Assembly (NCBI GenBank): GCA_020523885.1
Contig: JAJAPY010000025.1
Span: 1-37,912 of the forward strand
Reading direction: 5' to 3'
DNA length: 37,912 nucleotides
DNA from: Candidatus Liberimonas magnetica
Lineage (GTDB): Bacteria > Elusimicrobiota > Endomicrobiia > Endomicrobiales > JAFGIL01
Shown: one piece after another, positions 1 to 11,069 of the stretch
Layout of the letters: every line of letters starts with the position of its first letter
Numbering within the stretch: the stretch's first letter is position 1
The notes under the pieces: model-generated
Told to the model about the DNA's origin: nothing
The model's database searches: none
The model's input: only the letters and a program-made list of their open reading frames with translations
Translations under genes and position numbers: made by a program

Positions 1-3000
1 TGCCTGATATTCCTGATAAACCCGATAGGCCGGAGATTCCTGATAAGCCTGACAATCCTGATATACCTATTGAACCGGAGATGCCTGATATTCCTGACAA
101 ACCGGATAGACCGGATACTCCTTCTCCTCCGGCTGATCCTGTTAAACCAGATATTCCAGGGATTCCTGATAACCCAGATAAACCCGACAATCCTGATATC
201 CCGGTTGAGCCGGATATTCCGGATATACCTGACAAACCGGATAGACCGGATACTCCTTCTCCTCCGGCTGATCCTGTTAAACCAGATATGCCTGATAAGC
301 CTGACAATCCGGATAGGCCGGATAGGCCTGCTCCGCCGGCTTCTCCTGTTAATCCGGATATGCCGGATGTACCTGATAAACCAGTTGCACCTGATATGCC
401 TTGTAAGCCTGACAATCCTGATAAACCGGAGATGCCTGATATTCCAACCCCGCCGGCTTCTCCTGTTAATCCTGAGATGCCTGATATTCCTGATAAACCC
501 GATAGGCCGGAGATTCCTGATAAGCCTGACAAGCCTGATATACCTGATAAACCTGACAAACCGGAAATGCCGGATAGACCTGATAAGCCTGCTCCGCCGG
601 CTTCTCCTGTTAATCCGGATATACCGGATAGGCCTGACAGACCGGATAGGCCTGATACTCCGGTCTCACCTGATATTCCTGTCGCACCGGAGATTCCTGA
701 TATTCCTGACAAGCCGGATAGACCGGATACTCCTTCTCCTCCGGCTGATCCTGTTAAACCAGATATGCCTGATAGGCCTGATAACCCTGATATACCAGAG
801 ATTCCTGTTGCACCTGAGATTCCTGATATTCCTGACAAGCCGGATAGACCGGATATACCTGACACTCCTACTCCACCGATTGATCCAGTCAAACCGGAAA
901 TCCCAGATACACCTGATAAGCCGGTTTCACCTGATATGCCTGATATGCCTGATAGGCCTGATAGGCCTGACAAACCGGATATGCCGGAGATCCCTTCTCC
1001 GCCAGATAGTCCCGCTAAACCTGATATACCTGATAATCCTGATAAACCTGATATACCTATTAAACCGGAGGTTCCGGATACACCTGATAGGCCTGATATT
1101 CCTGATAGACCTGATATGCCGGATAGTCCTGCTCCGCCAGCTTCTCCTGTTAAACCAGAGGTTCCGGATATACCTGATAAACCAGTTTCACCGGATATGC
1201 CTGATAAACCGGATATTCCGGACAATCCTGACAAACCGGATATACCGGATTTACCTTCTACGCCGGCTGACCCTGTTAATCCGGATAGGCCTGATAAGCC
1301 CGACAAGCCTGATATGCCTGTCTCACCAGAAACTCCTGATAAGCCAGATAATCCGGATTGACCTGTCGCACCTGAAATTCCTGATAGGCCTGACAAACCG
1401 GATAAACCGGATAGACCTACTCCACCATTTTGCCCAGTCAAACCGGATATACCGGATAGGCCTGATAGGCCTGACAAACCGGATAAACCAGTTTCGCCTG
1501 ATATACCAGATATTCCTGATATACCTGATAAACCGGATATCCCTGACAAACCGGATATTCCGGATATGCCCGCTCCGCCGGCTGACCCTGTTAAACCTGA
1601 AATTCCGGATAAGCCTGACAAACCGGATAGGCCTGTCTCACCGGAAACTCCTGATAAGCCAGATAATCCGGATATCCCCGTAGCACCGGATATGCCGGAT
1701 ATTCCCGATAAACCGGATATCCCTGACAAACCGGATAAACCGGAGATTCCGGATATGCCCGCTCCGCCGGCTTCTCCTGTTAATCCGGATATGCCTGATA
1801 AGCCCGACAAGCCGGATATGCCTGTCTCACCGGAAACTCCTGATAAGCCAGATAATCCGGATATCCCCGTAGCACCGGATATGCCGGATAAACCAGATAG
1901 GCCAGATAATCCGGATAAGCCTGACATTCCTTCTGTACCGGCTGCCCCTGTTAAACCTGATATGCCGGATATGCCTGTCGCACCGGAGATTCCTGATATT
2001 CCTGTCGCACCGGATATGCCGGATAGGCCTGACATGCCGGACAGGCCTGATATTCCTGATAAACCGGATATGCCGGATATGCCTGCTCCGCCGGCTTCTC
2101 CTGTTAATCCGGATAGGCCTGATATTCCTGATAAACCGGTTTCACCGGATATGCCGGATAGGCCTGACATGCCTGATAAACCTGATATTCCTGTCGCACC
2201 GGATATGCCGGAGATTCCTGACAAGCCTGATATGCCGGATACTCCTTCTCCACCAATTGATCCCGTTAAACCAGATATTCCTGATATGCCGGATAAGCCG
2301 GATAAACCGGAGATTCCTGTCTCACCAGATATTCCTGATATACCCGACAAGCCGGATAAACCGGAGATACCAGATATGCCTACTCCACCTTCAGCTCCAG
2401 TTAAACCTGATATGCCGGATAAACCAGTAGCACCGGATATTCCAGATAAGCCTGATAGGCCGGATATGCCTGATATCCCTGATAAACCGGAGAGGCCGGA
2501 TAAACCAGACATTCCTTCATTGCCGGGTGTCCCAGTTAAACCTGATATGCCTGATATTCCTGACAAGCCGGATAAGCCGGATACCCCTGTCGCACCGGAT
2601 ATCCCTGATATCCCAGATAAGCCAGAGAGACCGGACAGGCCGGAGAGGCCTTCTTCGCCGGCTAATCCCTGTAAACCTGATATGCCTGATATTCCTGATA
2701 AACCTGATAAGCCGGTTTCACCTGATATTCCTGATATGCCTGATATTCCTGATAAACCTGATAAGCCGGATACCCCTTCATCGCCGGGTGTTCCTGTTAA
2801 ACCGGAGATTCCTGAAATTCCTGATAACCCTGATAAACCTGATACCCCCGTCGCACCGGATATCCCTGATATCCCAGATAAGCCAGAGAGGCCGGAGAGG
2901 CCGGATATGCCTTCTCCGCCGTCTGCTCCAGTTAAACCGGATATGCCGGATAAACCAGTTGCACCGGATATTCCAGATAAACCTGATAGGCCGGATATGC

Positions 3001-4300
3001 CTGACAAACCTGATAGACCGGATATTCCGGATACCCCTTCATCGCCGGGTGTTCCTGTTAAACCGGAGATCCCTGATAAGCCCGATATGCCTGATACACC
3101 TGTCGCACCTGATAAGCCGGATATTCCGGAGATTCCTGATATTCCAGACAAACCTGAGAGGCCGGATATGCCTGACAAGCCGGATATTCCGGAGATTCCT
3201 GCTCCACCGGCTTCTCCCTGTAAACCAGACAGGCCGGATATGCCTGACAAGCCGGTTTCACCGGATATTCCCGATACTCCGGATACGCCGGATAAACCGG
3301 ATATCCCTTCTAAGCCGGATATGCCTGAAATTCCTGACAAGCCGGATAAGCCTGACATCCCTTCTGCGCCAATTGTTCCGGTTAAACCTGATATTCCTGA
3401 AATGCCGGATAAGCCTGACAAACCGGATGTACCAATCGCACCTGATAGGCCTGATATGCCTGATAAACCTGAAATTCCTGACAAGCCGGATAAGCCTGAT
3501 ATTCCCGAAATTCCAGCTCCGCCGGCTTCTCCTGTTAATCCGGAGATTCCTGATAAACCCGATAAACCCGTTGCACCTGATATTCCGGATATCCCTGATA
3601 AGCCTGATAAACCGGATGTACCAATCGCACCTGATATGCCTGATATGCCTGATAAACCTGATATTCCTGACAAGCCGGATAAGCCTGATATTCCCGAAAT
3701 TCCAGCTCCGCCGGCTTCTCCTGTTAATCCGGAGATTCCTGATAAACCCGATAAACCTGTTTCACCTGATATTCCGGATATTCCTGATAAGCCGCTTATA
3801 CCAGATATTCCGGTTTCTCCCTGTGTTCCTTGTATTCCAGATAAGCCAGATAGGCCGGAGAGGCCGGAGAGGCCGGAGAGGCCTTCTCCGCCAGCTAATC
3901 CTTGTAAACCTGATAGTCCTGATATTCCTGATAAACCTGATAAGCCGGTTTCACCTGATATGCCGGATAAGCCTGATAGGCCGGATAAGCCTGATAGGCC
4001 GCTTACACCTTCTGGGCCTGTCAGTCCTGATATTCCGGAAATAGAACACGGTAATCCAGATATTCCTGACAAGCCGGATAAGCCTGATATTCCTGACACA
4101 GAACACTCTAAGCCTGATATTCCTGACAAGCCGGATAAACCTGAAATACCTGACACAGAACACTCTAAGCCTGATATTCCGGATATTCCTGATAAGCCGG
4201 ACAAACCTGAAATTCCTGTTTCACCGGATATTCCGGTCGATCCCGATATTCCTGATATTCCTGATATTCCCGTCAAGCCGGTTAAGCCCGATAAACCGGA
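1..4300. repeat. 9-bp periodic repeat tract coding for Gly-X-Ser triplets
   Basis: The whole tract has a 9-bp period (forms of CCTGATAAG and CCGGATATT on the plus strand), which equals one Gly-X-Y triplet on the minus strand. Longer blocks recur almost unchanged, for example around 95-155, 225-290 and 705-765, around 1635-1695 and 1825-1885, and around 3460-3545 and 3640-3735. This suggests expansion by unequal exchange of multi-triplet blocks. The period stays in frame throughout. Confidence 0.9.
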
Positions 4301-4858
4301 TGGTGCTACATTAGGGCTCCAGGTCGGAGCTGCGGCACCGTTACTCGTCAATACATATCCGGGCGTTCCGGGTGCTAAAAAGCCTGTTACATTTGAACCT
4401 GATTGGTATGGGATAGCTCCGACTGATCCGCCGGTTAGATTGTTAGTGAAAGTAGCTGTTGTTGCGAAAAACGAGTAAGGGGAGGTGGTAAATTGTTCTC
4501 TGGGTACAAGAGCAGAACCTTCTACTACTATTTCCAGCCAGTATGTGCCGCCACCCCAGTCAATGGCAGCAAAATTATATCCGAGCCCATTCTGAGAACC
4601 GAGCTGATATGAAAATATCCCTGTGCTTATTGTTACATTCCTTGCGTCACTTGACCATATAAGGTTACCGCTCGTAGCTGCGTCATAAATTCTGAATTCA
4701 ATGGATTTTACATCGCTCACAGGTTGGCCGTTCATGCGCAATCTGCCCTGATAATTAACAGTATTAGGTGTAGCGCAGTAGCTATCAGTTATAAATAATA
4801 GCGCTAAAGACAGCACTAGCAATAAAACAAAAGTTATGGAAGCTTTTTGTTTTTTCAT
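1..4858 (-). CDS. Giant collagen-like Gly-X-Y surface protein, C-terminus beyond window
   Basis: The frame starts at an ATG at 4858 and stays open to the left edge (about 1,619 codons), so the C-terminus is outside the window. I read the triplets across the repeat and found no stop. Residues 1-29 look like a signal peptide (MKKQKASITF, then a hydrophobic run ending near SYCA). Residues about 30-140 form a head domain with NYQGRL, FRIYD and LIWS motifs, shared with the fibre protein ending at 9000. From about residue 186 to the edge nearly every third residue is Gly, mostly as GLS, GIS, GLT and GET with almost no proline. Three Cys-containing phase breaks (GLECSVSG twice, GLPCSISG) lie near the start of the repeat. 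AGGA sits about 8 nt before the ATG. The protein is probably secreted or surface-attached. Whether it forms a true collagen triple helix is uncertain because imino acids are scarce. Confidence 0.88.
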   Translation of the reverse strand, partial: MKKQKASITFVLLLVLSLALLFITDSYCATPNTVNYQGRLRMNGQPVSDVKSIEFRIYDAATSGNLIWSSDARNVTISTGIFSYQLGSQNGLGYNFAAIDWGGGTYWLEIVVEGSALVPREQFTTSPYSFFATTATFTNNLTGGSVGAIPYQSGSNVTGFLAPGTPGYVLTSNGAAAPTWSPNVAPSGLSGLTGLTGISGISGISGSTGISGETGISGLSGLSGISGISGLECSVSGISGLSGLSGISGLECSVSGISGLSGLSGISGLPCSISGISGLTGPEGVSGLSGLSGLSGLSGISGETGLSGLSGISGLSGLQGLAGGEGLSGLSGLSGLSGLSGIQGTQGETGISGISGLSGISGISGETGLSGLSGISGLTGEAGGAGISGISGLSGLSGISGLSGISGISGAIGTSGLSGLSGISGISGATGLSGLSGISGLTGEAGGAGISGISGLSGLSGISGLSGISGLSGAIGTSGLSGLSGISGISGLTGTIGAEGMSGLSGLSGISGISGLEGISGLSGVSGVSGISGETGLSGISGLSGLQGEAGGAGISGISGLSGISGLSGLSGISGISGISGLSGATGVSGISGLSGISGLTGTPGDEGVSGISGLSGLSGISGLSGLSGISGATGLSGISGLTGADGGEGISGLSGLSGLSGISGISGATGVSGLSGLSGISGISGLTGTPGDEGVSGLSGLSGISGISGISGETGLSGLSGISGISGLQGLAGEEGLSGLSGLSGLSGISGISGATGVSGLSGLSGISGISGLTGTPGNEGMSGLSGLSGLSGISGISGLSGLSGISGATGLSGISGLTGAEGGVGISGISGLSGLSGISGISGETGISGLSGLSGISGISGLTGSIGGEGVSGISGLSGISGISGATGISGLSGMSGLSGISGETGLSGISGLSGLTGEAGGAGISGISGLSGISGLSGMSGLSGISGATGISGISGATGISGISGLTGAAGTEGMSGLSGLSGLSGLSGISGATGISGLSGLSGVSGETGISGLSGLSGISGLTGEAGGAGISGISGLSGLSGISGLSGISGISGATGISGLSGLSGVSGETGLSGLSGLSGISGLTGSAGGAGISGISGLSGISGLSGISGISGISGETGLSGLSGLSGLSGISGLTGQNGGVGLSGLSGLSGLSGISGATGQSGLSGLSGVSGETGISGLSGLSGLSGLTGSAGVEGKSGISGLSGLSGISGLSGISGETGLSGISGTSGLTGEAGGAGLSGISGLSGISGLSGVSGTSGLIGISGLSGLSGISGLAGLSGGEGISGISGLSGLSGLSGISGISGETGLSGVSGISGLTGSIGGVGVSGISGLSGLSGISGISGATGISGISGLSGLSGISGLTGSAGGEGVSGLSGLSGISGISGATGISGETGVSGLSGLSGLSGISGLTGEAGGAGLSGLSGISGLSGLSGISGLSGLSGISGLSGLSGISGISGLTGEAGGVGISGISGLSGLSGLQGISGATGLSGTSGISGLTGEAGGAGLSGLSGLSGLSGISGLTGSAGGEGVSGLSGLSGISGISGSTGISGLSGLSGLSGIPGISGLTGSAGGEGVSGLSGLSGISGISGSIGISGLSGLSGISGLSGLSGISG

Positions 4859-4939
4859 AACTTAATCCTGGTCATTCTACGACATCATTTCATCAAAAAA
4901 CTAATGTTTAAATGTTCAGCACACTTCTTGTTCAATAAT

Positions 4940-6368: not shown

Positions 6369-7775
6369 TTATTTAACTTCTTTTAAAAGCCTCTGTAACA
6401 AGCCATCTGTCATAAGTTGTACCTGGTCAGGGGTAAGCTCTTTACAGAAAGCCTTATCCGAATAGATTATTTCGCTGGTCTCAACATCCAGAACGCTTAT
6501 CGTAAGAAGGTAATGAGCGCCGAGTTTGCCGAACGTCCCTGAAACGATCTTGTTGACATTAAGCAGTTTGCCCATCTTAACAGCGCACTCATTTGAAGTA
6601 CAACCTGTCTGCTGCAAACCCTGTTCAGCCAGCACCTTTTCCATGTTGTTCCTGTCAACTATCTTGTACCTTTTTGACTTGACAAGGCTCGACCTGAATA
6701 TCTCCGTAGTAAAAGTTGCCTCTGACATTGATATAGGCGCAAGAGCCTGAAAATCCAGCACAGCCACGTTAAGCTGTTTTCCCTTTATGTCTTTTTCTGC
6801 CGTACCCTGTTTAGTTTCTTCTTTTTTAGAAACAGCTGGAGCCGGCGCTTCCGCTTCTTCTTCCGGCAAACCAAACTTCAGCCCCAAAGAAACCATATGC
6901 GTATAACCTAAATCACCGAACGTATCCATAGCGTAATCAAGGGTGTACTTTGAGATTTTTAATCCAAAACCCGCCGTTACACCTGCCAGGGCCTCAAAGT
7001 TAGCCGAAGCCTTTGTTTTATACCCCGCTCTTATCGCAAAGTTCCTAGTAATAAAACCCGGGACATACTCTATACCGGCATGTATATCCGCATCTTCATC
7101 CGATGAAGATACCAGATCGACATCTAATATGAAGTTTTCCATTTTATAAGCACAGCCGAACCTTAATATCTTTGGGAGCTCTTCAATTTCATTCCTGAAT
7201 TTCACTTCTCCGCCATAGTTTTGTGCTGCAAGGCCTATATTTATATTATTAAAAAGGCTGAAAAAAACGCCGAGATCGCCTACCAAGGACGAGCTCTGCT
7301 CATCTTCTATTTTAGACGCTACTTGTTTTAAGTTCAAACCAAAGGATACAACTCCAAACTTTTTTGCATAAGTAAGGCATGTATTCATATCAGTTGCGCT
7401 GTAGGTCTGGTTCAGAGCATTTCCTGAAATGTCATATTTATTTATATTGCCTGATCCCAGGTAATTAACACCGATGCCTAGCACTCCGCCAAATCCTTCA
7501 TGGCAATATGCGGCGTAATCAAATGATATATCCTGAAACCATAAAGCGTGCATCAGGGTCAACTCAGCATTTCCTTTTATTTGAGTAAGCCCCGCCGGGT
7601 TCCAGTATATGGCATTTATCTCATCTGATACACCTGTATAGGCGCTCCCCATAGCAACAGCCCTTGCCCCAAGCCCGAGTTTTAAAAACTGAGCGCTTGC
7701 CATTTTATTTGCTGCAAACGATAAAGATATGCATAAAATTTGAATAAGAAAAGTCAATGCTATTTTTCTTATCAT
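6369..7775 (-). CDS. PorV/PorQ-type outer-membrane barrel fused to CsgG-like domain
   Basis: I place the start at ATG 7775, preceded by AGGGAG and followed by a signal peptide (MIRKIALTFLIQ to SFAA). The frame is open to 7826 without a better site. Residues about 23-300 match PorV/PorQ proteins of type IX secretion: LGLGARAVAMGSAY, a YWNPAGL motif, and repeated amphipathic strands. A charged linker (about 303-330, EEEAEAPAP and following) leads to a CsgG/TolB-like alpha-beta domain with VAVLDF, YKIVDRNNMEKVL and a GCTSNECAVKMGKLL segment. The barrel should sit in the outer membrane with the C-terminal domain periplasmic. This fusion is unusual, since PorV normally ends with the barrel. It follows the small FlgD/T9SS-like gene and precedes the aldolase-like gene. 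Confidence 0.82.
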   Translation of the reverse strand: MIRKIALTFLIQILCISLSFAANKMASAQFLKLGLGARAVAMGSAYTGVSDEINAIYWNPAGLTQIKGNAELTLMHALWFQDISFDYAAYCHEGFGGVLGIGVNYLGSGNINKYDISGNALNQTYSATDMNTCLTYAKKFGVVSFGLNLKQVASKIEDEQSSSLVGDLGVFFSLFNNINIGLAAQNYGGEVKFRNEIEELPKILRFGCAYKMENFILDVDLVSSSDEDADIHAGIEYVPGFITRNFAIRAGYKTKASANFEALAGVTAGFGLKISKYTLDYAMDTFGDLGYTHMVSLGLKFGLPEEEAEAPAPAVSKKEETKQGTAEKDIKGKQLNVAVLDFQALAPISMSEATFTTEIFRSSLVKSKRYKIVDRNNMEKVLAEQGLQQTGCTSNECAVKMGKLLNVNKIVSGTFGKLGAHYLLTISVLDVETSEIIYSDKAFCKELTPDQVQLMTDGLLQRLLKEVK

Positions 7776-7814
7776 CAATAACTCCCTTTTTACTCTCTCA
7801 CCTCTCTTATAAGG

Positions 7815-7935
7815 CAGGGTGAGCAAGCAATGCTAAGAAAATGCCTTTTGGCAACGACTTGAACTTTTAGGAGTTGCCAAAGTGAAGTGAGCCTGCAACG
7901 GCGAACGTCTTTTCGTGCATTGTTTGCTCACCCTG
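7815..7935. repeat. Nested inverted repeat (about 120 bp)
   Basis: The outer arms 7815-7832 (CAGGGTGAGCAAGCAATG) and 7918-7935 are inverted copies with one mismatch. An inner pair, TTTGGCAAC (7847-7855) and GTTGCCAAA (7873-7881), nests inside. The element fills the gap between the small FlgD/T9SS-like gene and the PorV gene. It may be an mRNA-processing hairpin, an attenuator or a small palindromic mobile element. It shows no 7-nt period. Confidence 0.7.
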
Positions 7936-7941
7936 TACATT

Positions 7942-8502
7942 TTACCTTATTATCCCAAACTTCCCTTTAGCTTTTTCGCCGTTTGCATTCGTGATTAAAT
8001 ATATGTATATACCGCTTGAAACTTTAGCGCCGTTTTCATCTATGGTGTCCCATTGGTAATAGTCAACAGTTGCGTCATTTTTGTTTATGGTCTTTACAAG
8101 CATTCCATTATATGTATATATTTTTATTGTTACCTTATGTGTTAGTTTTTTGAAAGTTATAGTGCTTGCATCAAACAACCCGCCGCTTCCAGGTTTTAGC
8201 GGGTTGGGATAAACAAAAACACTGTTTAGATCAGTAGTTGGGGGAGGAAGGACCACAGTTTGTTGCTGAGCAGCAGAACCTGAATCTGCTTTAAAAGACG
8301 GGCTCTCGGCATTACCGGATGCAGTTTGACCTACTGTGGCAACAACCTGGTAACTTGGAGAAGTGCCTGTGCCTCCTGCAGCTGTCATAAGAGGCCCTGT
8401 CAATATATAATTCGTTCCAACCATGGCTGCAGCAAAAAGTACCGGTACGATAAAAAGCATTAATACCGTAGTAGAAGTCGGTTTTCTAAAGCTAAAAAAC
8501 AT
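7942..8502 (-). CDS. Small secreted protein with FlgD/T9SS-type C-terminal domain
   Basis: This 186-residue protein has an N-terminal hydrophobic signal or anchor (about 12-30). It then has an SPSYQVVATVGQ segment typical of short exported proteins, a Pro/Gln linker, and a C-terminal Ig-like domain (about 93-186). That domain carries VYPNP, an IKIYTYNGMLVKTI strand pair and a GIYIYLI strand. This is the pattern of FlgD_ig/Por-secretion C-terminal domains, which act as sorting or attachment modules in type IX secretion. AGGAG lies 7 nt before the ATG. It is placed between fibre-type genes and the PorV-type barrel gene, which fits export through a T9SS-like route. That route is inferred. Confidence 0.72.
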   Translation of the reverse strand: MFFSFRKPTSTTVLMLFIVPVLFAAAMVGTNYILTGPLMTAAGGTGTSPSYQVVATVGQTASGNAESPSFKADSGSAAQQQTVVLPPPTTDLNSVFVYPNPLKPGSGGLFDASTITFKKLTHKVTIKIYTYNGMLVKTINKNDATVDYYQWDTIDENGAKVSSGIYIYLITNANGEKAKGKFGIIR

Positions 8503-8513
8503 ACAAAGCTCCT

Positions 8514-8546
8514 AACCAAATCCCACCTACGCGGTGGGACACGGTT
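8514..8546. repeat. REP-like palindrome, copy 1
   Basis: AACC...TCCCACC (8521-8527), a loop TACGC, then GGTGGGA...GGTT. The right end touches the stop codon of the gene ending at 8546. A second copy with the same stem sequence but a different loop is at 37789-37821. It may act as a terminator or transcript-stabilising hairpin, but no T-run follows. Confidence 0.7.
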
Positions 8547-8977
8547 TATTTCATTTTTATAAATACTCTGCCGTCGCTGAGGATATAGCCTACGAAAACT
8601 CCGTCTTTGGTTCTCACTTCCCTGTCACTCAGATTAACCATATCTTTATTAACTCTTAATTTGCCCATAAGCGCAACTAAAATGTGGCCCATCTCCATCT
8701 CGTCATCCGTTTTATTGTCCGGCTTATCGCCCACAAATCCCGGTTTGCCTGAACATATCCCTAAAAGGGCGTCGCCTTCAACATATTTCCTTGCCCTGCC
8801 GGTCCTGACGTTAAGCCCGACTATATCTCCTGGCATTACTGACCCGCTTTCTTTCTCAAACCACTCAGCGTAATCAGCTCCGGAAGATACTAATATCTTA
8901 TCCTTTTTTCCTACGGGAATTAAAATACTACAAACAGAAATTATGATAAAAAAACCAAATATTATTCCGCTTTTCAT
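8546..8977 (-). CDS. Small exported protein resembling Peptidase_G2 autoprocessing domain
   Basis: This 143-residue protein begins with a signal or anchor (about 4-22). It contains GADYAEWFE, PGDIVGLN, GDALLGICSGKPGFVGD and a final VFVGYILSDGRVFIKMK. By eye this order resembles the Peptidase_G2 intramolecular chaperone domain found at the end of phage appendage and fibre proteins, where it helps trimerisation and is cut off. Here it is a separate gene 22 bp after a fibre-like gene, so a split fibre/chaperone arrangement is likely. No clear ribosome site precedes the ATG at 8977, so coupling to the upstream gene is possible. The family assignment is from memory of motifs and is tentative. Confidence 0.6.
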   Translation of the reverse strand: MKSGIIFGFFIIISVCSILIPVGKKDKILVSSGADYAEWFEKESGSVMPGDIVGLNVRTGRARKYVEGDALLGICSGKPGFVGDKPDNKTDDEMEMGHILVALMGKLRVNKDMVNLSDREVRTKDGVFVGYILSDGRVFIKMK

Positions 8978-8999: not shown

Positions 9000-11069
9000 T
9001 TACGGATAGGGATTTGTGACTGTATAGGTAACTACAACACCATATAATCTCACAATATTTCCACCTGTAGCAGGATGCATATAAACATGGACATAATAGG
9101 TATTTGCCGTATTATCTATTTGTGCACTTACAATGGTTGATGTATTTTGTGATGTAAGACTGGTGGCTCCTGTAAATGATACTTCTGCCATATTTGTCCA
9201 AACACCAGAACCAGTAAAATCAAACTTATACATATCTACAAGTACTTTATCTGTTGCTTGAACCGTAGAAAATATTGCTTTTAAATTAGTAACTATAGCG
9301 CCATTAGGAAGACAAAGAGGAGCGATCCCATTTATATCTTGCGCCCCATTGATTGTAACATACCCTCTGGTTGAAATGCTTACCATTCCGGAAGTAAATC
9401 CAATAAAGGTAGTAGCAGGTATCGTATAATACCTCGTAACAGCTGTCATAGAATACCCGCCTGCATTTATTTCACCTACAGCCTTTATAGAATACGCTGG
9501 TGTCGGGAGAGTGCCTATGCCAAGATAACAGCCTCCTCCCAGCCACACAGAAGTTGACGGTGAAATAATCGAAACCGATTGGTTAAATATAGTAGATGAG
9601 GAAAATTTAACAAGCCCATTAAATGTGCTTTTATCAACAGTATAAATACCTTTTAACATGCTAACATTGCCTGAAAATGTACTTTTTCCGGCTACGGTCA
9701 TTGTCGCAGTATTTATACCTTGACCTGCCGTTAAAGTCCTCCCCAAAGTGCAGGGCCCGCTGACAGACAAATTATTGTTCACAGACAAATTTCCTGCAAC
9801 ATTAACCTGGTTATTTACAGATTTGAGAGTCAAAGTTGTATTATTGCTTTGAATATTATTAGCATGGACATAACTTGAAACAAATACGGCATTTGATACC
9901 GTCATTGACGACGCATATATGCCTTGATTTGCTGTCGTAAGTTTTGCAAATGTATTCGCACCATTAAATGTATTATTTAAATTTAATATTCCGCTTCCGC
10001 CGGATATTGATGAATCCACATAGCTTTTCGTTGCGGCTTCCTGTGCATTTGTCGGATCTGCAAGGCTGATGATTTTTTTACTCGTCATATCAAGAGTTCC
10101 GCCGATACTTACATTGCCAGTGACACCCAGGGTACCTGATACTGAGGCAGAGGTTGAAATCGTAACCATTTTTGTAAATGTGTTCTGACCAGAATAAGTG
10201 TTTGTGGAATAAATCACGCCGTTATTTCTTGGGACATACTTGGCTGAGATTGAGTCCGAGCCGCCTTCGTAATGAGTTACCGCATGAGGAGCCGGCGCAA
10301 GCCCGGTATGAGTATGTATGCCGCCGATAGGAATACTGCCTCCTGTACTTAGAAGCAGCCAGTACGGATTAGAGGTGCTTATTATAGTATTATAGATAGC
10401 AAAATTTAAATCACTTTTTGTTATCGTTCCGTTTTTTATATGTGTTGAAGTGACTACTTCTGCAGCATCGTTCCTTATGAACTGAGACCCGTGCAATCCG
10501 TCGACTTTATCCGCATTAAAACCTTTTGCGCTTGCGTCGATATTTGAAGCCAGGTCGCTTACCGTAATCGTTCCGTCAATAATTTGATAGCTTCCTATAG
10601 TGTTTGCCCCTACGCCGTTATCAAGCCCGGTGGGTTTATTTTTCACGTCAGCCCAGTTCACGCTTTGAGCAAAAACAGCGGTTGAGGCCTTTAACGAATA
10701 AAACGAATACGCGGTAGGAACAAGCCTGTACCTGGGGCTCAAGGTCTCATTGCCTATGGTCACAGAAAGCCAGCAAGGATAACTGAATTCAATATTCAAC
10801 GGCGTTACCTCGCCCAGGTAAACATTGTAAAACCCGCTTGAATCCAGAGTTACCGTCTGAGTTTCATTCCACAAGACCGTACCGTCCGTCCCTAAATCGT
10901 ATATCTTAAAAATTATTTCCTTGGAGCCTGTTACGGCCTGGCCGGATGCATTGGTTAGCCTTCCCTGAAAACCTATGAGTTTGGGGACTGCGCAATAGAG
11001 TTTTAGGAAACTGCCTGTAAAAAGTAGTGTAAAAATCGTTAATACGATAAAACGGGATTTTCTTGCCAT
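9000..11069 (-). CDS. Secreted tail-fibre-like surface protein
   Basis: This 689-residue protein has a signal peptide (about 1-27), then a head domain (about 28-135) with GFQGRL, FKIYD, TVLWNE and PTAYSFYSLKAS that matches the head of the collagen-like protein. The middle holds phage-fibre-like segments: ADKVDGLHGSQFIRND near 185, and later short repeats built around LSVNNNLSVSG and FSGNVSM. The C-terminal 150 residues look like a beta-sandwich (YYTIPATTF, VLVDMYKF, YYVHVYMHP). AGGAGGG stands 6 nt before the ATG and a near-consensus promoter lies upstream, so this starts the surface-protein operon. A surface fibre or adhesin role is inferred from architecture. No catalytic motif is visible. 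Confidence 0.75.
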   Translation of the reverse strand: MARKSRFIVLTIFTLLFTGSFLKLYCAVPKLIGFQGRLTNASGQAVTGSKEIIFKIYDLGTDGTVLWNETQTVTLDSSGFYNVYLGEVTPLNIEFSYPCWLSVTIGNETLSPRYRLVPTAYSFYSLKASTAVFAQSVNWADVKNKPTGLDNGVGANTIGSYQIIDGTITVSDLASNIDASAKGFNADKVDGLHGSQFIRNDAAEVVTSTHIKNGTITKSDLNFAIYNTIISTSNPYWLLLSTGGSIPIGGIHTHTGLAPAPHAVTHYEGGSDSISAKYVPRNNGVIYSTNTYSGQNTFTKMVTISTSASVSGTLGVTGNVSIGGTLDMTSKKIISLADPTNAQEAATKSYVDSSISGGSGILNLNNTFNGANTFAKLTTANQGIYASSMTVSNAVFVSSYVHANNIQSNNTTLTLKSVNNQVNVAGNLSVNNNLSVSGPCTLGRTLTAGQGINTATMTVAGKSTFSGNVSMLKGIYTVDKSTFNGLVKFSSSTIFNQSVSIISPSTSVWLGGGCYLGIGTLPTPAYSIKAVGEINAGGYSMTAVTRYYTIPATTFIGFTSGMVSISTRGYVTINGAQDINGIAPLCLPNGAIVTNLKAIFSTVQATDKVLVDMYKFDFTGSGVWTNMAEVSFTGATSLTSQNTSTIVSAQIDNTANTYYVHVYMHPATGGNIVRLYGVVVTYTVTNPYP

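Follow-up and report, generated by a model that had tools for sequence, protein, structure and literature searches.

A probable mosaic surface fibre of the MAT-like kind, with a collagen shaft of phage type, in Candidatus Liberimonas magnetica

The mosaic adhesive trimer (MAT) fibres of Bdellovibrio bacteriovorus are prey-recognition fibres of a predator; all 21 Bdellovibrio MATs have a conserved β-rich domain of about 130 aa right after the signal peptide and varied tips, and the paper describing them mentions no collagen shaft (PMC10769870). Among phage collagen fibres, EPclA has been proven to form trimers with a triple helix and has a C-terminal trimerisation domain (PMC3368898). The bacterial collagens studied by experiment rely on Pro, Thr and charged residues, and no self-assembly into superstructures has been observed for prokaryotic collagen-like proteins (PMC8968730).

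The window, i.e., the whole stretch of DNA analysed here, is a complete contig of 37,912 bp (JAJAPY010000025.1) of the 3.39-Mb Ca. Liberimonas magnetica genome, which is in 29 contigs. A collagen-like gene at its left end is read here as encoding a secreted, most likely homotrimeric surface fibre, a MAT-like mosaic whose collagen shaft is of the phage type; we assign this reading a probability of roughly 0.6. The gene is a single minus-strand frame (window 2-4858) of 1,619 aa with an ATG start, 7 bases upstream of which the sequence reads AGGA, a Shine-Dalgarno-like element (4866-4869, minus strand); no stop codon is present before the frame runs off the contig end. It is laid out as a signal peptide, a head of about 110 aa, a linker of about 50 aa and a Gly-X-Y repeat that begins at aa 188 and occupies window 2-4297 on the minus strand. 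An earlier note had described a very long, proline-poor collagen-like tract continuing past the edge, and this description holds: the repeat has 473 triplets, with 6 prolines among 1,432 residues (1 at position X and 5 at Y), and the frame is still open at the contig end.

No frameshift or stop was found across the 4.86 kb of this frame. The DNA pattern for (G[LIMF]S)3 had 177 matches versus 0 expected in shuffles, which excludes a chance origin of the repeat. All four Gly codons are in use in the tract (145/154/141/29), and 17 comparable modules are about 87% identical at codon positions 1 and 2 and 59% at position 3; therefore, the tract is no recent slippage product. Some of its segments are recent copies, as indicated by a 95-bp exact repeat and a 189-bp period at 95%. 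The contig starts within a 55-bp exact internal repeat (1-55 being identical to 478-532), so the assembly most likely broke at the repeat. Since the window is the whole contig, there is no neighbouring sequence to supply the C-terminus; when the genome's contigs were searched for it, neither the repeat nor the tip of the C9 paralogue (see below) was found on any other contig.

It is extremely improbable that the tract is an artefact of assembly or reading, such as repeat copies collapsed in assembly or a gene that in truth lies on the opposite strand. The contig end does fall in the repeat, in one of the 55-bp exact copies, but the unbroken frame, the ribosome-binding site, signal peptide and conserved head at its start, the divergence of codon position 3 with conservation of positions 1 and 2, and an independent complete paralogue on another contig (C9) all argue otherwise; the plus strand also has long open frames, yet these lack the conserved head and are interrupted by stops. 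The plus-strand frames lie opposite the collagen tract in window 1-4478, read PDIPDKPDRP... for 970 aa and more, and are artefacts of the codon composition of the repeat. An automatic gene caller could take them for a proline-rich protein.

Residues 1-28 (MKKQKASITFVLLLVLSLALLFITDSYC; 4775-4858, minus strand) are a predicted signal peptide, judged from basic residues at the start with a hydrophobic stretch behind them and from a helix at residues 3-26 in the AlphaFold model. The head domain follows at aa 29-136 (NYQGRL...PREQFTTSPYSF; 4451-4774, minus strand) and is β-rich. In the NCBIfam profile search, aa 1-187 matched only NF053851 (Bdello_MAT_N), the model for the N-terminal domain of the Bdellovibrio MAT fibres, with E=9.6e-6 and 25.5 bits against a curated cut-off of 60. 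A second fibre protein encoded in the window (9000-11069) matched the same model with E=1.5e-6 and 28.1 bits (cut-off 60), and in a search of the whole genome these two genes were the best two places. The model was also matched by 19 of 20 aligned members of the head family (best 7.5e-12), and the head is common to many proteins and genomes of the order. Thus the head is in the right place and of the right size for a MAT N-domain, yet below the family cut-off; because 25.5 and 28.1 bits fall short of 60, it is called MAT-like and not MAT, and by profile similarity it appears to be a remote relative of the Bdellovibrio domain. The head had no convincing family match in Pfam and no match by sequence among solved structures. 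Its AlphaFold model showed β strands at low confidence (pLDDT 57), and Foldseek searches with this model against PDB and viral structures gave no match at E<=0.001, the best E values being 0.07 and 0.008.

The linker, aa 138-187 (TNNLTGGSVGAIPYQSGSNVTGFLAPGTPGYVLTSNGAAAPTWSPNVAPS; 4298-4447, minus strand), is of the phage-tail-fibre type as judged by its identity to viral structural proteins. Relatives were found in 92 viral stretches, many of them structural-protein segments at 60-69% identity; the linker was 64% identical to an annotated tail fibre in phage record MW202520.1 and 68% identical to that of the C9 paralogue in the same genome. Its viral contexts were varied. The linker was considered as a specific partner of viral Gly-X-Y tracts and rejected in this role: a Gly-X-Y run soon after it was seen in only 2 of 114 frames, both of them Gly-rich stretches, and it is accordingly taken as a general fibre linker. 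Two regular-expression sketches of the linker matched none of the 68 viral frames with Gly-X-Ser (GXS) tracts described below.

The N-terminal part of the shaft (aa 188-274; 4037-4297, minus strand) is broken by three 4-residue inserts, CSVS, CSVS and CSIS, at aa 233-236, 252-255 and 271-274, and every insert contains a single cysteine. Gly then occurs without exception in 448 consecutive triplets, from aa 275 to aa 1619 at the contig end (2-4036, minus strand), and 71% of this part is Gly-(Leu/Ile/Val/Met)-Ser. The commonest triplets of the shaft are GLS (163), GIS (151), GLT (26) and GVS (19), GLS and GIS together making up 66%. Charged residues are few, with 1 basic and 47 acidic among the 1,432 residues of the tract, and acidic/Gly modules, GLTGEAGGAG, recur between hydrophobic blocks. 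The acidic marker had no significant regular spacing; the only periodicity above shuffles was a rhythm of hydrophobic triplets of about 7 triplets, which segmental duplication could cause. At pLDDT 35, the AlphaFold model of one repeat chain carried no usable information. Sequence searches of PDB matched the repeat to type I collagen, the GAPGSQGAPGLQ fibril 8zxl and internalins, and these matches were rejected as reflecting only Gly-X-Y or low complexity.

Like Scl1/Scl2, Lcl and BclA, which are Gly-X-Y rods displaying a globular part, the shaft matches Pfam PF01391 (Collagen triple helix repeat), at 611 bits versus a cut-off of 27.2. The NCBIfam Lcl model was also matched at 697 bits, above its cut-off of 500, and both scores would suit a conventional bacterial collagen-like adhesin unrelated to MAT fibres. 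We consider this unlikely, since the Lcl and Scl scores arise from 8-12 placements on the repeat, the N-terminal 187 aa match MAT_N only, and the bias to Pro, Thr or charge reported for such proteins (PMC8968730) is missing. Stabilisation by Pro/Hyp, Thr or charge pairs at X and Y is typical of studied bacterial collagens, not a strict requirement of the PF01391 family, and was not seen in the shaft. Scl1/Scl2, Lcl and BclA have Pro/Thr or charged X and Y residues and other globular domains, and the similarity is confined to the repeat. An adhesin of this kind is also disfavoured by the diderm nature of the cell and by the lack of an LPXTG anchor in C9; any LPXTG of the collagen-like protein itself would fall in the C-terminus beyond the contig. 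The Lcl and Scl matches were rejected as repeat-driven. The equivalog cut-offs of NF046116 (Lcl; 697 vs 500 bits) and NF038329 (SclB; 586 vs 325) were passed by repetition alone, and annotation pipelines may misname long Gly-X-Y proteins as Lcl or SclB.

Searching IMG/VR for five consecutive G-[Ile/Leu/Met/Phe]-Ser triplets returned at least 120 matching stretches, and at least 68 viral loci had frames carrying GXS tracts, in which GFS, GIS, GYS and GLS dominate and proline is mostly below 1%. Such tracts occur across viral loci L069-L148, with up to 790 triplets in the 3,275-aa frame of L069. The triplet type is thus, by sequence comparison, already abundant in viruses and not unique to this shaft. 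The likeness to viral collagen-like fibres (IMG/VR L069, L130, L106 and L090; PHROGs 6320 and 5073) extends to the near-absence of proline, Ser at Y, the great length of the proteins and the linker family, which is also viral. The viral tracts differ in being often broken, the longest uninterrupted run in the 68 loci having 117 triplets versus 448 in the shaft, and in favouring Phe and Tyr; the secreted head was not found on viral GXS fibres. PHROG tail-fibre families matched the repeat strongly, with scores inflated by low complexity. Among the 341 genomes of the phylum scanned, the GXS pattern was genuine only in the genome studied here and absent from the other 340 sampled; a match in genome G075 was rejected because it is read from the strand opposite a Lys/Pro/Glu repeat. 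Where further collagen-like proteins turned up, in the phylum or in named genomes, their triplets were of other kinds, such as GPQ, GDK and GIQ.

The wide occurrence of this triplet type in viral contigs bears on a further proposal of the earlier note, that a hydrophobic X with a small Y departs from known bacterial collagens and might form a polyglycine-II-type bundle or another Gly-every-third fold. A bundle of many short left-handed helices was not supported. Gly at every third position and the near-absence of proline would permit the conformation, but short Gly-rich helices joined by interrupting turns were not found in aa 275-1619: the 448 triplets run without a break and give no turns, so that a bundle is unlikely, and the accompanying modules are those of trimeric fibres. 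The single-chain AlphaFold model also had no bundle, although a pLDDT of 35 excludes nothing. Overall, we regard a polyglycine-II fold as quite unlikely, somewhat more so than a conventional adhesin.

In a collagen triple helix, the X and Y side chains point outward, and the rise is 0.286 nm per residue. A triple helix of this shaft would accordingly expose about 350 Leu/Ile per chain, and the helices might pack sideways into fibrils or a matrix, making the product a sheath or biofilm material and not an adhesive fibre. This is the main rival to the mosaic surface fibre and, while improbable, deserves more weight than the conventional adhesin, the polyglycine-II bundle, a prophage fragment or an artefact. 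The alternation of acidic/Gly modules with hydrophobic blocks would agree with such packing, but the acidic marker is not regularly spaced to a significant degree, the discrete tip of the C9 paralogue fits single fibres, and superstructures have not been observed among prokaryotic collagen-like proteins (PMC8968730). More broadly, we tentatively raise the idea that a distinct assembly with Gly at every third position is formed by the proline-free Gly-(Leu/Ile/Phe/Tyr)-Ser tracts that abound in viral fibres and reach at least 448 unbroken triplets in this cell; with the same reserve, this might consist of triple helices stabilised through lateral hydrophobic contacts and hydrogen bonds of Ser, or of another multi-chain fold. 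If true, there would be a collagen class needing neither proline nor charge pairs. In the literature searched, we found neither an experiment on triple helices with hydrophobic X and no proline nor an experimental characterisation of a proline-free Gly-(hydrophobic)-Ser collagen class.

Five head-bearing places were found on four contigs, namely the collagen-like protein, the second fibre gene of the window, and the paralogues C9, C2 and C16; the head is constant and the C-terminal parts differ, as in the MATs. The second fibre gene (9000-11069, minus strand) encodes 689 aa with the same head, 31% identity over the N-terminal region and a different shaft. C9 is complete at 573 aa and has the head, the same linker, a GLS/GIS shaft with one insert (GLPCAISG) and a C-terminal domain of about 150 aa. 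This domain was 39% identical to the C-terminal end of a tailspike-like viral protein (L304) and 43% identical to the end of a cellular protein of the phylum with a different repeat shaft (L359), and had no match in deposited phages, PHROGs or PDB. Its presence on two other shafts suggests, at the level of sequence, that it behaves as a movable tip. The L359 protein (genome G282) is a fibre-like frame of AVDTxKLATDAVT repeats with the C9-type tip at its end. C2 has the head, GIGTTSP...LDVNG repeats and a weak match to phage tail collar, and C16 has the head with another C-terminal part and adjoins a PorV/CsgG-like gene. In those paralogues that were scanned, S74 domains were not detected.

Compared with the B. 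bacteriovorus MATs (Bd2133, Bd3182 and Bd2439; PMC10769870), the proteins described here are alike in the order of a predicted signal peptide and, immediately after it, a β-rich head whose sequence resembles the MAT domain remotely, in forming a set of paralogues that keep the head and vary in shaft and tip, and in having modules of the phage-fibre type. They are unlike MATs in that the head match is under the family cut-off and the shaft is Gly-X-Y, or of GIGTTSP-type repeats in C2, in place of a trimeric β-helix/β-prism; in addition, no S74 was seen, the host is not known as a predator and the C-terminus of the collagen-like protein lies beyond the contig. EPclA and EPclB of E. coli O157:H7 likewise have a collagen shaft after a head, together with a known C-terminal trimerisation domain, and differ in being prophage-encoded, with a phage-fibre head, an α-helical coil and a different C-terminal domain (PMC3368898).

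Several genes near the fibre genes deserve mention. Window 6369-7826 (minus strand; Pfam) encodes a PorV-like outer-membrane protein with a fused C-terminal domain of the CsgG/LpoB kind, and such genes lie near head-domain fibre genes at two loci, this one and L364:3-1184 beside C16; the protein may be part of fibre export or anchoring. Window 7942-8502 (minus strand; Pfam) encodes a small secreted protein that ends in a FlgD_ig/CHU_C-like domain. It was 38% identical to L009:6202-6771 (E=2e-35), and homologues lie downstream of the second fibre gene of the window and also of the C9 fibre gene. Directly downstream of the second fibre gene, window 8546-8977 (minus strand) encodes a free-standing protein of 143 aa with a weak match to Peptidase_G2 (23.2 bits vs cut-off 25), an intramolecular-chaperone domain with autoproteolytic cleavage; possibly, it is a separately encoded fibre chaperone. 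A search for SprA of the type IX translocon gave no match, and the control was equally silent.

Other genes in the window encode MTHFR, peptidyl-tRNA hydrolase, ribosomal protein L25, ribose-phosphate pyrophosphokinase, TonB receptors and a T2SS ATPase. They belong to the housekeeping and envelope functions of a diderm cell, and no phage gene was recognised among the flanking genes of the window; therefore, the locus does not look like a prophage. The viral-type linker and shaft might suggest the tail-fibre gene of a prophage fragment, but on the side covered by the contig the gene does not lie among phage structural genes, it has a predicted signal peptide and a cellular head that is common to many genomes of the order, and the same head type occurs at five places on four contigs. 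A prophage origin is, in our judgement, very unlikely.

The mosaic surface fibre is preferred because NF053851 is the only NCBIfam match of the head and has its best two genome places in this window, because the linker and GXS shaft are nearest to viral structural proteins, and because the five head-bearing proteins have different shafts and tips, the C9 tip recurring on two other shafts. The MAT plan of Bdellovibrio and the proven trimeric phage collagen fibres provide the precedents, and the housekeeping and envelope neighbours are not those of a phage. Counted against this reading were the MAT_N score, far under its cut-off at 25.5 versus 60 bits, the pLDDT of 57 for the head model, the missing Foldseek support and the silence of the MAT paper on collagen shafts. 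The protein would be taken across the inner membrane by its signal peptide, and the β-rich MAT-like head would sit at the cell surface, joined through the phage-tail-fibre-type linker to the Gly-(Leu/Ile)-Ser shaft. As a triple helix, the part of the shaft covered by the contig would measure about 410 nm at the collagen rise, and the shaft as a whole about 400 nm or more. The three chains may be held together by interchain disulphides between the cysteines of the inserts, which lie at the head end of the shaft. Beyond the contig edge, a C-terminal trimerising and binding tip, such as the one in C9, would contact other cells or surfaces; both the tip and the trimerisation are proposed by analogy with this one paralogue. 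The sequences themselves show the frame, its modules, the regularity of the repeat, the paralogues and the relatives, whereas the trimer, the triple helix, the display at the surface and the adhesive role are presumed.

If this reading is right, the chimeric fibre plan of Bdellovibrio would also exist in another bacterial group, collagen shafts included, and fibres with a constant head and varied phage-like parts would be a more general bacterial tool for contacting cells. The tract itself, with hundreds of triplets and almost no proline or basic residues, is a natural extreme test of what a collagen-like repeat needs.
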